The notes under the pieces are model-generated. The model had not been told where the DNA came from, made no database searches, and saw only the letters and a program-made list of their open reading frames with translations. The translations under genes were made by a program, and so were the position numbers. Shown here in pieces: positions 8,909-20,415 of a stretch of 64,000 bases of DNA. Position 1 is the first letter of the stretch. The number at the start of each line of letters is the position of its first letter. Source of the DNA: Woeseiaceae bacterium. Lineage in GTDB: Bacteria; Pseudomonadota; Gammaproteobacteria; Steroidobacterales; Woeseiaceae. Location: the NCBI GenBank assembly GCA_021773135.1, contig JAJFKP010000048.1, positions 1 to 64,000 of the forward strand, written 5' to 3'.

Positions 8909-10146
8909 TCCAGTGGCACTCCGCGTGACAGGCGTGGAAGGCGACCTGCCAGTCCCATTGTATGCCTGGCAAACAGCCTGCGAACCCCCGGAATCAGGTC
9001 AAAACCCAGCATTCCGATATTTCGCAGAACCCGAACCGGCATGCGGGAGTCTCCGAACAATCGCACAATGCCATCAGTAAAGCGCACCAGCTTTTTTTGA
9101 TCGGGCAAACGCCATTCCGCATAATTTTCGAGAATAACCGCGTGTCCGCAGTCGACCACATCCTGCTTACGCGCATCCGCAATGCAATCGCACAAGGCGG
9201 CAACATCGCGGAGGCCTAAGTTAAATCCCTGCGCAGCAACCGGATGCAGACCGTGTGCCGCATTGCCAACGACAACGCTGCGCCTGGCGACCAGGTCGTT
9301 AGCCTTGCTGAGTGCGAGTGGGTATGCGGCACGCTTGCCGGTTTTCGAGAACCGGCCGAGACGCTGCCCGAACGCAGCCTGGATTCGAGCGGTAAATTCC
9401 TCATCGTCAAGATCCATGAGTTCGCTAGCTGTCGACGGTGACTGAATCCAGACGAACGCTACGCGCTCGTCCGATATCGGCAACATTGCCACCGGTCCAT
9501 CTTCGGTGAAACGCTCGAAAGCACGGTTCTCATGCGCCTTTTCTGGCAACAAATTGCCAATGACCGCGCACTGCTGGTAGTCCGTCCGGGTTGCGCTGAT
9601 GCCGACCATGTCGCGTACTGCGGAGTTGGCGCCATCGGCGGCAACGAGCAGCCGGCAAGCCAGTTGCCGCGAAGCGCTATTTTCCTCAATCGTGACTGTG
9701 GCATGCGACTCACTGGCCGTCACCGCAGCAATTCTGGCCGGGCAGATGACGTCGACGTTGGTCACGGAACTCAGTGCGTTCTGTAGTACGCCACCCAAGA
9801 CCCGGTTTATTACGACGTATCCCAGGGCGTCGACCTGCTGCTCTTCCGCATCGATGTGCGCGAATCCGAACCGGCCTTTGTCTGACACGTGAATATGTTT
9901 GATTGGTGTCGAGGCGGCGACAATATCGGGCCAAAGTCCAATGGCTTCAAACATGCGTTGACTGCTGCGCGATAACGCAGTCGATCTGTCATCAAAGCTC
10001 GGTTGCCGGGCTGCGCCACGCGCGACGGCTTCCACCACCGCAATCTTGAGATTCAGCGGCGACAGAGCCAGTCCCAGGCTTGTGCCGACCATGCCGCCGC
10101 CAGCAATGATAATGTCGTATTCGGTGCGAGTCCTGGCGGCCGGCAT
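8905..10146 (-). CDS. ubiH: 2-octaprenyl-6-methoxyphenol hydroxylase
   Basis: A 413-residue FAD monooxygenase that hydroxylates C1 of the ubiquinone ring. The nucleotide-binding motif GGGMVGTSLGLAL is near residue 15, the UbiH-specific FDDRSTALSRSS segment follows, and the FAD ribityl motif GNAAHGLHPVAAQGFNLG is near residue 290. It lies 4 bases after pepP and overlaps ubiI by 4 bases, within the ygfB-pepP-ubiH-ubiI operon. An additional short N-terminal tail (MPAARTRTEY) precedes the FAD domain, so the start could be slightly internal. Confidence 0.92.
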   Translation of the reverse strand: MPAARTRTEYDIIIAGGGMVGTSLGLALSPLNLKIAVVEAVARGAARQPSFDDRSTALSRSSQRMFEAIGLWPDIVAASTPIKHIHVSDKGRFGFAHIDAEEQQVDALGYVVINRVLGGVLQNALSSVTNVDVICPARIAAVTASESHATVTIEENSASRQLACRLLVAADGANSAVRDMVGISATRTDYQQCAVIGNLLPEKAHENRAFERFTEDGPVAMLPISDERVAFVWIQSPSTASELMDLDDEEFTARIQAAFGQRLGRFSKTGKRAAYPLALSKANDLVARRSVVVGNAAHGLHPVAAQGFNLGLRDVAALCDCIADARKQDVVDCGHAVILENYAEWRLPDQKKLVRFTDGIVRLFGDSRMPVRVLRNIGMLGFDLIPGVRRLFARHTMGLAGRLPRLSRGVPLE

Positions 10147-12916: not shown

Positions 12917-13105
12917 GGCGTCTCCTGCAGTGTTCGATACTGACCTGGAAACCTTTCGACCCTAAATCTTTACCTCGGGGTCATGCACTGTCGGTAGCAT
13001 GTGTGCAAGACCACTTCGGTGGAAAGCCTTTTGTTACCACGGCCGACCCCACCTGTTGCTCTGGTTCGAGAGCGACGGACGGTAACGGCACAGGCGGGAG
13101 GCGTC
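12917..13105 (+). ncRNA. ssrS: 6S RNA
   Basis: About 189 nt between zapA and fthC, the conserved location of 6S RNA, which binds the sigma-70 RNA polymerase holoenzyme in stationary phase. The ends pair over 12 bases: GGCGUCUCCUGC (12917-12928) with GCGGGAGGCGUC (13094-13105), including G-U pairs. Internal parts recall the Escherichia coli RNA: AAGCCUUUUGUUACC pairs with GGUAACGGC, and a hairpin UUGCUCUGGUUCGAGAGCGA lies inside. Length matches the family (about 184 nt). Confidence 0.9.
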
Positions 13106-13740: not shown

Positions 13741-14064
13741 ACCCCGCTCGGCGCACTTCTGCACACGAATTCGCGTCATTGCTCTTAATTTTCGACGTGT
13801 GAATCACTGCAAACCTCTCGTTGGCACAAATGTGTTTGCGCCGACACACCAGCTCGTTTTGCACGCCAATTTTTTGAATCGAATCGCTTAAGAAAAAATA
13901 AAATCGACTGAAATTCTTTCAATCAGGTTTCGTCAATGACATGTGTCGCAATTTTGCGCCACTTTGTAGTGTGTTTCGTAGTGTTAACAGCGTCACGTTA
14001 CTTGCTGGATTTTTCGTTTTCGTTGTATATACTCAGCCCCGGGTACCCGACACGGAGAAAATTT
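13741..14064. other. AT-rich intergenic region before the histone-like gene
   Basis: Some 324 bases without a gene. The only clear signal is a promoter near its right end. An open reading frame entering from 13936 is read as upstream leader, because its first 43 residues do not resemble the lysine-rich protein. Confidence 0.6.
14002..14033 (+). promoter_or_regulatory. Probable promoter of the histone H1-like gene
   Basis: TTGCTG (14002-14007) is followed, 18 bases on, by TATATA (14026-14031), overlapping TATACT (14028-14033). The start codon at 14065 lies about 30 bases downstream, with GGAG at 14054-14057. Confidence 0.55.
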
Positions 14065-14508
14065 ATGGCTACCAAGAAGAAGTCACGCAAAAAAGCTTCG
14101 AAGCGAAAAGTCGCGAAGAAGCGGAAAGTAACGAGGAAGAAAGCGGCTCCTAAACGGAAGGTCGCTAAGCGTAAGGCGAAGAAGAAAGTTGCCAAGCGCA
14201 AAACGAAAAAGAAAGCTACGAAGCGTAAAGCTAAGAAGAAAGTAGCGAAACGGAAAACCAAGAAGAAGGCCAAGAGAAAGGCTAAAAAGAAAGTAGCAAA
14301 ACGCAAGACCAAGAAAAAGGCGAAGCGCAAGGCAAAGAAGAAAACTGCCAAACGCAAAACCAAGAAAAAAGCCAAGAAAAAGGCGAAGCGCAAAGCAAAG
14401 AAGAAAACCGCTAAGCGCAAGACTAAGAAAAAAGCGACCAAACGTAAGGCCAAAAAGAAAACGGCTAAGCGTAAGACGAAAAGGAAAGCTTCTCGTCGTC
14501 GCAGATAG
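14065..14508 (+). CDS. Histone H1-like lysine/arginine-rich DNA-binding protein
   Basis: A 147-residue protein made almost wholly of Lys, Arg, Ala and Thr. It consists of imperfect tandem repeats of the type KRKAKKKVAKRKTKKKA; the codons vary but the protein pattern is kept. No globular domain is present. It resembles the C-terminal domains of bacterial H1-like proteins (chlamydial Hc1/Hc2, Pseudomonas AlgP) and presumably coats or condenses DNA. The start is ATG 14065 with GGAG upstream; the longer reading from 13936 adds an unrelated hydrophobic leader. A strong hairpin terminator follows. The number of repeats is likely variable between strains. Confidence 0.88.
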   Translation: MATKKKSRKKASKRKVAKKRKVTRKKAAPKRKVAKRKAKKKVAKRKTKKKATKRKAKKKVAKRKTKKKAKRKAKKKVAKRKTKKKAKRKAKKKTAKRKTKKKAKKKAKRKAKKKTAKRKTKKKATKRKAKKKTAKRKTKRKASRRRR

Positions 14509-14696: not shown

Positions 14697-15359
14697 ATGG
14701 ATCAAAGTCAAAAGAAGTTAATCGCGGCGAAAGCGTCCCTGGACTACATCCATGATGACTGCGTATTAGGTGTGGGAACGGGATCAACTGTTAATGAGCT
14801 CATCGACCTGCTCCCGTCTATAAAAGAGAAAATTCAGGCCGTTGTGTCCAGCTCCCTGGCAACGACTACGCGTCTGGAGTCGCTGGGCTTCGAAGTGTCA
14901 TTGTTGAACAGCGTTGGCGATATCGATGTTTATATCGACGGAGCGGATGAGGCAAACAAGCATTTCCACCTGGTCAAAGGTGGCGGCGGCGCACTAACCC
15001 GGGAAAAAATACTAGCCGGCGCGGCGCGAAAATTCGTCTGCATTATTGATGACTCAAAGCAGGTTGGCATGCTGGGAAAATTCCCGTTGCCAATTGAGGT
15101 TGTGCCGATGGCACAGTCGTTCGTTGCGAGAAAGATGGTCAAGATGCGTGGCCAGCCGATCTGGCGAGAAAACTTTGTCACCGATAACAGTAACCACATA
15201 CTGGATATTCACAACCTGAAGATTACCAACCCCGTGGAAATGGAAACGCGGATCAATCAGATTCCGGGCGTCGTAACCGTTGGTCTGTTTGCGCATCGGC
15301 CGGCGGACGTATTGCTGGTGGCGAGCGACACCGGCGTGCGCGTGATGGAGAATAAATAG
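14697..15359 (+). CDS. rpiA: Ribose-5-phosphate isomerase A
   Basis: A 220-residue enzyme interconverting ribose 5-phosphate and ribulose 5-phosphate in the pentose phosphate pathway. It has the phosphate-binding GTGSTVNELIDLL near residue 25, the DGADEA segment with catalytic Asp residues, and KGGGGALTREKI with the catalytic lysine. The length equals that of the Escherichia coli enzyme (219). The start is ATG 14697; the reading extending to 14532 crosses the upstream terminator. The nearby position of fthC is as in enterics. Confidence 0.94.
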   Translation: MDQSQKKLIAAKASLDYIHDDCVLGVGTGSTVNELIDLLPSIKEKIQAVVSSSLATTTRLESLGFEVSLLNSVGDIDVYIDGADEANKHFHLVKGGGGALTREKILAGAARKFVCIIDDSKQVGMLGKFPLPIEVVPMAQSFVARKMVKMRGQPIWRENFVTDNSNHILDIHNLKITNPVEMETRINQIPGVVTVGLFAHRPADVLLVASDTGVRVMENK

Positions 15360-15410
15360 GCGTTTTACCGCTGGTTTTCTCCCTGGCCTGATGACGGGCA
15401 TGGTGTTTTG

Positions 15411-15460
15411 ATCCAGCTCTCCCCCAGCCAAAAAATTAGGTCCGCTAAGGCGGGCTTAAG
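15411..15460 (-). repeat. Second copy of the terminator/tRNA-end module (degenerate)
   Basis: On the minus strand AAGCCCGCCTTAGCGGACC leads into TAATTTTTT and then GGCTGGGGGAGAGCTGGAT. The last part is identical to the sequence just past the tRNA-Gln terminator at 15782-15801, so a hairpin-plus-U module followed by the same tail occurs twice. The copy here has an imperfect stem. Confidence 0.65.
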
Positions 15461-15560
15461 TGTGTTGTCTTAATCACGCGATCGCCATTGGGCTAAAGAT
15501 CAATCGGCACCTGTCGACGACTCAATGAATCAGATCGCGGGCCGATTGGGGAGGAGGGAT

Positions 15561-15765
15561 TGACTCGGCCCATCCATGGGCCTCGCCCTGCGGGCGGCTG
15601 CGCCGTCCAAATTCGCTCCTGCAATTTGTGACTCGGCCCATCCATGGGCCTCGCCCTGCGGGCGGCTGCGCTGTCCAAATTCGCTCCGGCAATTTGTGAC
15701 TCGGCCCGTCCATGGGCCTCGCCCTGCGGGCGGCTGCGCCGTCCAAATTCGCTCCTGCGAATTTG
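15561..15765 (-). repeat. Three tandem copies of a structured 68-bp element
   Basis: Units start at 15561, 15629 and 15697 (68, 68 and 69 bp). Read on the minus strand, each has three hairpins: CAAATTCGC/GCGAATTTG, CGCCC/GGGCG and GGCCCAT/ATGGGCC. The units differ at only a few positions. They lie downstream of tRNA-Gln on the tRNA strand. Confidence 0.85.
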
Positions 15766-15788
15766 TCGAACCTGGGGTTCTCATCCAG

Positions 15789-15850
15789 CTCTCCCCCAGC
15801 CAAATAAATAAGCCCGCTTTAGCGGGCTTATTTATTTGGCTGGGGGAGAG
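15789..15850. repeat. 62-bp perfect palindrome overlapping the tRNA-Gln 3' end
   Basis: Arms 15789-15818 and 15821-15850 are exact inverted copies (30 of 30), with TT between. The right arm includes the last 14 nt of the tRNA. Confidence 0.9.
15803..15836 (-). terminator. Terminator of tRNA-Gln
   Basis: On the minus strand, AATAAGCCCGCT pairs with AGCGGGCTTATT around a two-base centre and is followed by T-rich sequence. It lies directly after the encoded CCA and forms the core of the 62-bp palindrome. Confidence 0.75.
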
Positions 15851-15910
15851 GGATTCGAACCCCCGTTGGCGGAGTCAGAGTCCGCAGTCCTACCACTAGA
15901 CGATCCCCCA
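15837..15910 (-). tRNA. tRNA-Gln (anticodon CUG)
   Basis: A complete 74-nt tRNA with encoded CCA. Acceptor stem TGGGGGA / TCCCCCA with the U1-A72 pair typical of tRNA-Gln, discriminator G, D-arm TCTAGTGGTAGGA, anticodon stem GCGGA / TCCGC around the loop CTCTGAC (anticodon CTG), and T-arm GGGGGTTCGAATCCCTC. It reads the codon CAG. Confidence 0.95.
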
Positions 15911-15956
15911 TTTGGAATCGATCATGAATCAATTTGCCGGCCGAATCGTCGGGATA

Positions 15957-16022
15957 GACTCGGGCCGCACGGCCCTCGCCCTACGGGCGGCTTCGCCGTC
16001 CAAAATTGCTGACGCAATTTTG
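15957..16022 (-). repeat. Diverged fourth copy of the structured element
   Basis: A 66-bp unit upstream of tRNA-Gln. On the minus strand the first hairpin is CAAAATTGC/GCAATTTTG and the third is GGGCCG/CGGCCC. Both differ from the tandem copies but keep full pairing. Similarity continues beyond the unit toward the tRNA (GAGTCTATCCC, ATTCGGCC, TTGATTCAT). Confidence 0.75.
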
Positions 16023-16179
16023 TCGAACCCCGATTCTCCCGCGGTTCCTGTGCGGACCTAAACGGTCGATGAGAATCGATCTTTAGCGCCCAATTCTCGA
16101 AAATACTGAGCGCAAGCCGGCTGTTAGACTAACTCGTATCGAGCCTGCAGCCAGCCTGCGATCGAAAGGATATTGACCT

Positions 16180-16572
16180 TTAGCGCTTCGAGTACTGCGT
16201 GGCACGACGTGCTTTGCGGAGGCCCACTTTCTTGCGTTCGACCTCGCGTGCATCGCGAGTCACAAACCCTGCTTTACGGAGAGTGGGGCGCAGTGATTCG
16301 TCAAATTGCATCAACGCGCGCGTTAGTCCGTGACGAATGGCACCAGCCTGTCCCGTCGTGCCACCTCCGCTGACCGTCACGTTGATATCGAATTTTTCCG
16401 CCATGCTAATCAGCTCAAGGGGCTGACGAACGATCATGCGCGCAGTTTCCCGCCCGAAGAACCGATCCAGCGGACGGTTGTTCACTTTGATCTCGCCGGA
16501 ACCGTTTTTCATGAAGACCCTGGCGGTCGATGACTTACGCCGACCGGTGCCATAAAAATGTGTATCACTCAT
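16180..16572 (-). CDS. rpsI: 30S ribosomal protein S9
   Basis: A 130-residue ribosomal protein of the small subunit head. It starts with the family segment [15 protein letters not shown], contains [19 protein letters not shown], and ends with the long basic tail [20 protein letters not shown]...RRATQYSKR, whose last residues reach the P-site tRNA. It is 32 bases downstream of rplM in the usual rplM-rpsI operon. Confidence 0.97.
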
Positions 16573-19596: not shown

Positions 19597-20415
19597 CTAG
19601 CGGATACTGCGTCGCGATTTCAACATTTCATAGGCGCTGCGTACTTCACGCGTGCGTCGTTCCGCTTCGTTGACTACTGCTTTGTCAGGTTTGTCGGCCG
19701 CGATCTTGTCCGGATGATTCTTGTTCATCAGGCGCCGGTACGCTTTCTTGATTTCGTCGTTGGATGATGACTTATTAATTCCGAGCGTTGCGTAGGCCGC
19801 ATCGACTCTGCGGGCGTCGGCATTACCGGCCGCAGAGCGCCGGAACCCTCTCTGAGCGCGCAACATCGCTTCGAGTTGTGCCAACTCCACGCGACCGATA
19901 TTCAACTCGGTACAGATTGTCCATAGCGCAGCACGCTCACGTTGATGCAGGGACGGCTTTGACAGCGCGACTTCCATCAGGAGTCGCAGAAAAAGCATAC
20001 GCGTTTCCGCTTTGCGTGCACTTTCCGCGCGCAGTTTGCGCAATGTCGATTTGAGCGGAAACCCGGGCGACTTGCCGGCTTCAAACCACTCAATTGCCTG
20101 TCTGGTTTCGATCGGACCGAGGCCCAGGCGATGCATCAGTGTTCGCGCCGCGCGAATCTCATCCTCAGAAACACGACCGTCTGCTTTTGCAAGATGACCC
20201 ATTGTTCTGAATAAGGCCTGCACAAATTGCGCGGAAAGCTGTTCCAATCGCCCATTGGTGGTGTCCTTGCCAAATTTGATGAAACGGTCTGCAAAACCGC
20301 GATCGAATTGATGACCCAGCAGCACGCCGATGAGAACCATCCATGGACGCCCGGTTGCCAGTCCGGCGAGCCCGCCGACGACCTTACCCCAGTACTGCAC
20401 AGGCGGGATTTCCAT
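19597..20415 (-). CDS. djlA: Co-chaperone DjlA (TerB and J domains)
   Basis: A 272-residue inner-membrane DnaJ-like protein. One N-terminal membrane segment (about 11-32, VVGGLAGLATGRPWMVLIG), a central TerB-like helical domain with acidic pair DGRVSEDE, and a C-terminal J domain with HPD in KNHPDKIAADKPD (about 235-247) that stimulates DnaK. Order and length fit DjlA. It is transcribed toward rpe, 44 bases away. Confidence 0.9.
   Translation of the reverse strand: MEIPPVQYWGKVVGGLAGLATGRPWMVLIGVLLGHQFDRGFADRFIKFGKDTTNGRLEQLSAQFVQALFRTMGHLAKADGRVSEDEIRAARTLMHRLGLGPIETRQAIEWFEAGKSPGFPLKSTLRKLRAESARKAETRMLFLRLLMEVALSKPSLHQRERAALWTICTELNIGRVELAQLEAMLRAQRGFRRSAAGNADARRVDAAYATLGINKSSSNDEIKKAYRRLMNKNHPDKIAADKPDKAVVNEAERRTREVRSAYEMLKSRRSIR

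Follow-up and report, generated by a model that had tools for sequence, protein, structure and literature searches.

Repeat units around tRNA-Gln

The window, by which we mean the whole 64-kb stretch of DNA analysed here, contains a tRNA-Gln gene that is flanked by four related repeat units. An array with a period of 68, 3.0 copies and 95% matches was detected by Tandem Repeats Finder at 15561-15766; its three 68-bp units span 15561-15765 and a diverged unit lies at 15956-16022, with tRNA-Gln between them. As the tRNA is encoded on the minus strand, the three tandem units lie 3′ of it and the diverged unit lies 5′, which is how the preliminary description of this DNA had placed them (Tandem Repeats Finder, repeat search and ARAGORN). 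The functional strand is most likely the minus strand (tRNA sense), opposite to the strand used in that description. The diverged copy, at 15954-16021 in the repeat search, has 68% ungapped identity, and 80% identity by BLAST. The features of the locus are given below with their scores against R1, a covariance model described in the next section.

15956-16022, minus strand: unit 4, the diverged copy 5′ of the tRNA, in which paired changes preserve the hairpins; without GGA loops (R1 79.9 bits, in the training set)
15837-15910, minus strand: tRNA-Gln (anticodon CTG), host gene of the repeats (ARAGORN; Rfam RF00005, 61 bits)
15789-15850, minus strand: 30-bp perfect inverted repeat made of the tRNA 3′ tail, a terminator-like hairpin (AATAAATAAGCCCGCT/AGCGGGCTTATTTATT) and an inverted copy of the tail (repeat search and reading)
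15766-15772, minus strand: GGTTCGA, the T-loop-like left flank of the array (sequence and family flank statistics)
15697-15765, minus strand: unit 1, adjoining the tRNA, with a perfect hairpin 1 with loop AGGA and hairpin 3 with TGGA (R1 87.2 bits, a training-set member; fold)
15629-15696, minus strand: unit 2, hairpin 1 minus one base, loops CGGA and TGGA by sequence (R1 61.6 bits)
15561-15628, minus strand: unit 3, hairpin 1 minus one base, loops AGGA and TGGA (R1 69.6 bits)
15542-15560, minus strand: degenerate copy of the tRNA-Gln 3′ tail, AATCCCTCCTCCCCAATCG (including the last base of unit 3) versus AATCCCTCTCCCCCAGCCA, 14/19 identical by hand
15492-15553, plus strand: copy of a second repeat family (CTAAAGATCAATCGGC ... 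GCCGATTGGGG), by sequence, which borders units here and elsewhere
15392-15458, minus strand: second terminator-plus-inverted-tail copy, past the array, 79% identical to 15764-15830 (repeat search)

Hairpin 1 of units 2 and 3 has one base fewer (CAAATTGC versus GCGAATTTG), and when unit 2 was folded singly its hairpin-1 GGA was not placed in a loop. Unit 4 sits in a T-arm-like remnant (GGGGTTCGA / unit / TATCCCG). A simple terminator scan flagged 15436-15459 on the plus strand only; it flagged neither the inverted repeat at 15789-15850 nor any minus-strand terminator around the array. Searching the 64-kb window with R1 returned units 1, 3 and 4 and a 22-base antisense fragment (E 0.017), unit 2 being listed in the search of the genome. 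Also present in the window are an ORF with Lys/Arg-rich tandem repeats (13936-14508) that looks histone H1-like and is repeated in tandem at the DNA level too, and, by Rfam, a 6S RNA at 12919-13104 on the plus strand and a glycine riboswitch at 173-260 on the minus strand.

Structure, covariation and distribution of the repeat

Each unit consists of consecutive small hairpins (H1, H2a, H2b and H3) and is about 65-95 nt long. The preliminary description had assigned three hairpins to each unit; the hairpins are present, except that its second hairpin is in fact two small ones and that hairpin 1 is perfect in only one of the three tandem units, the one adjacent to the tRNA. The compensatory pairs that it named can be read in the sequence, with both sides of hairpins 1 and 3 changed and pairing kept. 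Single-unit folds were compared with shuffles for units 1, 3 and 4 and gave z-scores of -3.6 (plus strand) for unit 1, -2.9 (plus) and -3.4 (minus) for unit 4, and an unremarkable -1.7 (plus) and -1.05 (minus) for unit 3. A 297-nt minus-strand stretch that includes the terminator palindrome had a z-score of -6.1, a value that none of 200 shuffles reached.

Model R1 rests on 19 sequences, taken from the window and from relatives, with no E. coli sequence among them; 14 of 60 genomes contributed, and the members from the window's own genome were units 1 and 4 and one further copy (L005). In the R1 alignment 93.7% of cells were paired and 65 showed double changes; shuffles gave 20.4 ± 3.2 such cells, and sliding the structure along the alignment gave no more than 11. 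This strong covariation, which had been set beforehand as a test, bears out the pressure to keep structure that had been proposed from the window alone.

A search for further copies had been named beforehand as a test, and R1 found 30 matches in the window's genome at E <= 1 (the weakest at E 0.009; 3 of the 30 were training members), whereas a BLAST search with a single unit turned up just one further clear copy there. Across the 60 genomes, BLAST copies occurred in 18, beside many different tRNA genes and tmRNA, and R1 matches at E <= 0.01 in 42, both counts including the window's own genome; among the 46 genomes without training sequences, 28 had R1 matches. R1 also matched 71 of 143 genomes drawn from the class at E <= 1e-4, only the window's own among these having supplied training sequences. 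The units thus exceed chance, both by the model matches elsewhere in the genome and by the covariation across genomes, and they are present in about half of the sampled genomes of the class.

Homology to E. coli tRNA-linked repeats

R1 was run with filters off on three stretches of E. coli K-12 that had been chosen beforehand. It scored 55.4 bits (E 6e-19) between the rrnB 5S gene and murB, 23.6 bits for each of the three repeats at tyrT, and 23.5 bits at the arg locus; in E. coli as a whole, 3564 of 5426 genomes had matches at E <= 1. The layout at tyrT is also the same, namely GGTTCGA / unit / GAGT / AATCC-tail-CCA. Given the matches at the rrnB, tyrT and arg loci, the four window units are, judged by model score and layout, tRNA-linked repeats (TLRs), a family to which the tyrT repeats and the rrA, rrB and rrF RNAs also belong. 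The preliminary description had called the element undescribed, which fails because the units match these E. coli repeats (excerpts of PMC8144298). Rfam offered no fitting family for the units: its RtT RNA had no match listed in 15350-16180 even at E <= 5, and sub-threshold miRNA matches fell on the 30-bp palindrome.

According to excerpts of PMC8144298 (2021), TLRs have been known in E. coli since 1978, so far without known function, and 22 of them occur in E. coli K-12, each identical to the upstream tRNA or rRNA over 18-19 bp at its 3′ end. The same excerpts report that three E. coli TLRs lie behind 5S genes and are transcribed, processed and bound by CsrA and Hfq, that GGA motifs mediate the binding of CsrA by the rrB TLR, that the 19 TLRs linked to tRNAs are predicted not to bind CsrA (scores below 0.01), and that rrA/B/F phenotypes are only modest.

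The tyrT repeat (RttR) and the other tRNA-linked E. coli TLRs resemble the window units in being repeats of tRNA operons, set between GGTTCGA and AATCC-tail-CCA. In contrast to the E. coli TLRs, the window units are 68-bp and run head to tail with no tail between them, and in contrast to the tRNA-linked ones, three of them have GGA loops in pairs and the fourth sits 5′ of the tRNA. The 18-19 bp tail is blurred in the window array (the 14/19 match noted above). Among the matches listed, the last 18 bases of the upstream tRNA recurred nearby with at most 2 mismatches for 47 of 83 units (exactly for 32), the 83 being those of 137 hits with a same-strand tRNA within 700 bp upstream. RrA, RrB and RrF share the same hairpin string (as in the rrnB copy) and GGA loops; they are described in excerpts of PMC8144298 as situated in E. 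coli rrn operons, where a pair of terminators encloses them, as transcribed by read-through and as conserved in Enterobacteriales, whereas the window repeats stand beside a tRNA rather than behind a 5S rRNA and R1 reaches 71 of 143 genomes of the class. The TLR family is thus already known; set against open-licence PMC papers, what appears to be new is its breadth outside Enterobacteriales, its position in tRNA loops and the paired CsrA-type loops at tRNA loci, none of which we found in print there.

Position of the units in tRNA loops

In tRNA sense, the common layout opens with a tRNA, complete with tail and terminator; an inverted tail copy may come next, and then a repeat stretch of the form GGTTCGA / hairpin string / GAGTCA / ATCCC-tail-CCA, often followed by another terminator. 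Loci were collected by a sequence pattern and searched with R1 (98 sources: the window, 18 loci from relatives and 79 of the 119 loci found by the pattern, L087 being left out). When the flanks of a unit were joined (9 bases on the left and 11 on the right) and compared with 167 tRNA genes, the join equalled tRNA sequence with at most 3/20 mismatches in 84 of 128 distinct hits among the matches listed, against 3 and 1 hits in controls in which the right or left flank was taken 20 bases away; the 128 were drawn from 137 hits after removal of repeats and contig ends. On sequence evidence, then, the unit occupies the precise position of a loop within a duplicated piece of tRNA, mostly that of the T-loop at TTCGA^ATC. 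Other sites, assigned by eye, were the D-loops of tRNA-Ser copies (L015, L017 and L026) and an anticodon loop (L041).

The association with tRNA loci that had been suggested from the window extends through the family. Among the matches listed, 100 of 133 pattern matches on 119 named contig stretches had a tRNA or tmRNA no more than 600 bp away (86 of these matches lying 3′ of it and 14 lying 5′), and so had 15 of the 30 model matches in the window's own genome. All 100 pattern matches near a tRNA among those listed were in tRNA sense, a result that is partly built in because the pattern starts with GGTTCGA and so selects the left flank. The same orientation was seen for 15 of 15 such model matches in the own genome, for 18 of 18 among the 30 model matches at the 18 loci of relatives, and for 20 of 22 BLAST loci in a hand tally that set L039 and L040 aside as repeats, the two opposite ones being L028 and L030. 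Four pattern matches judged by eye to be chance-like (L087, L122, L185 and L190) were kept in the tRNA-distance, H1-stem, fold-based loop and motif counts.

In the window's genome three units break into copies of the second repeat family, at ACTAAAGATCA^ATCCGC, and other copies are uninterrupted, so that filled and empty versions, ACTAAAGATCA/unit/ATCCGC versus ACTAAAGATCAATCCGC, stand in one genome. The flank pattern thus looks like the outcome of precise insertion, an event that we infer. Compared with integrative elements at tRNAs, which carry an integrase and restore the tRNA 3′ end, the units are short and gene-free, and the tail copies resemble a tRNA end restored in this way. Copies of this second family (CTAAAGATCAATCNGC ... 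GCNGATTGGGG) border TLR units or are interrupted by them at window 15492-15553 and at L068, L069, L072, L060, L005 and L008. On another contig of the genome (G000:C35), one unit lies behind tRNA-Arg at 9322 and two modules of a unit with a tRNA-Arg tail lie at 20141 and 31757 (L075, L071 and L077), the modules being about 11 kb apart; they are perhaps the borders of islands integrated at tRNA-Arg.

GGA loops and csrA genes

By sequence, units 1-3 each carry two GGA loops (by fold, units 1 and 3 do) and unit 4 has none. Across the window's genome a GGA loop was present in 17 of 30 folded units in tRNA sense and in 0 of 30 on the other strand. The wider loop sample consisted of 129 distinct pattern elements from named genomes, among the matches listed, and the pattern itself does not select loops. 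Of these elements 65 had GGA at the hairpin-1 loop, and GGA lay in or at the loop in 62 of the 120 H1 stems that had 6 or more pairs (TCC in 2) and on 22 of 42 different H1 5′ arms, all among the matches listed. The motif CANGGANG followed H1 in 29 of the 129 elements listed, against 0 for its complement, 1 for its reversal and 5 and 2 for two permutations. A later CA(N)GGANG occurred in 45 of the 65 elements with H1 GGA and in 2 of the 64 others among those listed, an association with a Fisher p of 2e-16 when kinship is ignored.

Counts made by fold, again among the matches listed, were lower: of 130 elements, 48 had GGA in the H1 loop, 46 had it in a later loop and 32 had both; GGA ranked only 11th among loop trinucleotides, with 2.4-fold enrichment, and TCC was found in 20 loops versus 98 for GGA. 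For the genome counts the fold-based figures were used, a hairpin-1 pattern that also matched TTTGGACG having been set aside. The CsrA SELEX consensus is given in excerpts of PMC4347634 as RUACARGGAUGU, with GGA preferred in a hairpin, and the paired GGA hairpins, which are nearly always on the tRNA-sense strand, would fit this binding pattern.

The window's genome has two csrA genes, one of them directly beside a tRNA-Ser locus with TLR units. At this locus (G000:C10:1947-3064; L081, L065, L066, L070 and L073) csrA lies directly upstream and five TLR-like model matches are found; in several relatives, for example G003, G008 and G027, one contig carries a csrA match and a model match no more than about 1 kb apart. 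Presence of TLRs showed no dependence on csrA across the 60 genomes, model matches occurring in 32 of 46 genomes with a csrA match and in 10 of 14 without one; six of these ten are less than 90% complete, the others being listed at 100 (G039), 94 (G012 and G051) and 91 (G007). Nor was there real enrichment among 398 genomes of the phylum, where csrA was present in 6 of 7 genomes with the pattern and in 220 of 398 overall. Arrays of GGA hairpins also stand behind terminator-like sequences in loci where ARAGORN finds no tRNA (L078 at 1425-1640, and L067 and L074). The sequence ACAGGGATGT occurs twice in L078 and 17 times in the genome, versus 0 for its reversed control and roughly 9 expected from length alone.

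The CsrB/CsrC and RsmX/Y/Z sponge RNAs likewise hold several GGA hairpins in one RNA; they have their own promoters and many more sites than TLRs. None of these families reached its Rfam gathering score in the window, RsmY attaining 11.6 bits where 57 are required and a Yersinia CsrC-type family 16 bits where 279 are required. Likened by description only, 3′ETS-leuZ of E. coli is a sponge RNA cut from a tRNA precursor (excerpts of PMC8144298), and it differs in sponging small RNAs by base pairing rather than CsrA.

Possible roles of the repeats

We favour, with somewhat better than even confidence, a reading in which TLR read-through RNAs of tRNA operons bind CsrA and are spread by an insertion process; the CsrA part is favoured because of the paired GGA loops, their likeness to the CsrA consensus and the csrA genes in the genome. 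RNA polymerase would read past the tRNA-Gln terminator, RNases would cut out a TLR RNA, and the GGA hairpins of units 1-3, two per unit and therefore about six, would bind the CsrA/RsmA dimer. If TLR RNA binds CsrA and is made by read-through of the tRNA terminator, CsrA would be titrated in proportion to tRNA transcription, that is, to growth, as has been proposed for the E. coli rrB RNA. Where GGA loops are missing, as in unit 4, the units may have decayed or taken another role; about half of the sampled family among the matches listed is of this kind, which counts against the CsrA reading, as do the lower fold-based GGA counts, the lack of dependence on csrA, the non-binding predicted for the tRNA-linked E. 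coli TLRs and the absence of a flagged minus-strand terminator around the array. We infer that the window TLRs may be transcribed, bind CsrA and be mobile.

The sites themselves are explained equally well if TLRs are selfish mini-elements, that is, gene-less palindromic insertion sequences moved in trans by an enzyme that cuts tRNA loops at TTCGA^ATC and similar sites, perhaps on folded single-stranded DNA, with the hairpins kept for transposition and the survivors being those in spare tRNA copies. Taken as the whole account, we think this rather unlikely. It draws on the flank joins, the D-loop and anticodon-loop sites and the inverted units (L030 and L028) seen by eye, and the filled and empty copies of the second repeat, and no target duplication is needed. 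Against it, no enzyme was found and the genome's Y1/REP-transposase genes are not near copies, the loops are conserved and not only the stems, with GGA on one strand, and the orientation to the tRNA is nearly fixed in the own genome, the relatives and the BLAST loci. Mobility and the favoured CsrA reading may hold together, and in its broadest form, which is tentative and about as doubtful as mobility by itself, the idea would be a CsrA sponge that is mobile and found throughout the class: a cassette of hairpins, without genes, that would insert into tRNA and 5S rRNA loops and be co-transcribed with the stable RNA, tying the availability of CsrA to growth. GGA hairpins of this kind also stand in arrays behind terminator-like sequences of other genes in the window's genome.

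It is improbable that the repeats, with their duplicated tails and terminators, serve only to end or buffer tRNA transcripts as nuclease decoy tails whose hairpins are kept for stability. The tail and terminator copies that flank the arrays, the recurrence of the upstream tRNA tail near units (the 47 of 83 listed matches) and the dual terminators described for E. coli rrn operons in excerpts of PMC8144298 speak for such spacers, which would nevertheless leave the conserved GGA loops and the units 5′ of tRNAs unexplained. An inverted tail that closes a minihelix is, moreover, not general. We rejected this candidate, in which the inverted tail pairs with the distal tail like an acceptor stem: the window folds in this way and the family does not generally, with 8.9 of 12 pairs versus 8.3 for random tails and at least 11 pairs in 9 of 70 among the matches listed (70 of 137 hits, with a tRNA within 250 bp upstream and a tail ending in CCA, repeats removed).

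Less probable still is a neutral by-product, in which template switching at hairpins would produce the tandem copies and mend imperfect palindromes, and paired changes would arise without selection. Quasi-palindrome correction is a known mutational process, and the near-identical tandem units and inverted tail copies would fit it; the recurring loop motif, its strand and the spread over 71 of 143 genomes of the class would go unexplained.

The preliminary description had also suggested a REP-like element with a linked REP transposase, an identity that the search largely refutes: the repeats are palindromic, intergenic and multi-copy and the genome has three REP-transposase-type (RAYT-type, PF01797) genes, but no model match above 9.1 bits (E 0.04) lies in about 10 kb around them, the flanks of two of the three carry other palindromes and no REP foot of the GTAG/GGAG type was seen, so that a REP/BIME element is highly implausible.

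The breadth of the TLR distribution, the precise site in tRNA loops and the pairing and strand specificity of the GGA hairpins make two questions testable: what inserts TLRs, and whether tRNA transcription controls CsrA through them. The rrnB T1-T2 terminator, a common laboratory part, holds a member of the TLR family (excerpts of PMC8144298). The two REP-transposase-type genes with palindromes or repeats of their own have them at 1360-1420 and 2120-2180 of L044 and at 1310-1400 and 2150-2195 of L045 (GGGACATTCTTGATTTA; GGTCGAACC), and these are unlike the TLR hairpins.
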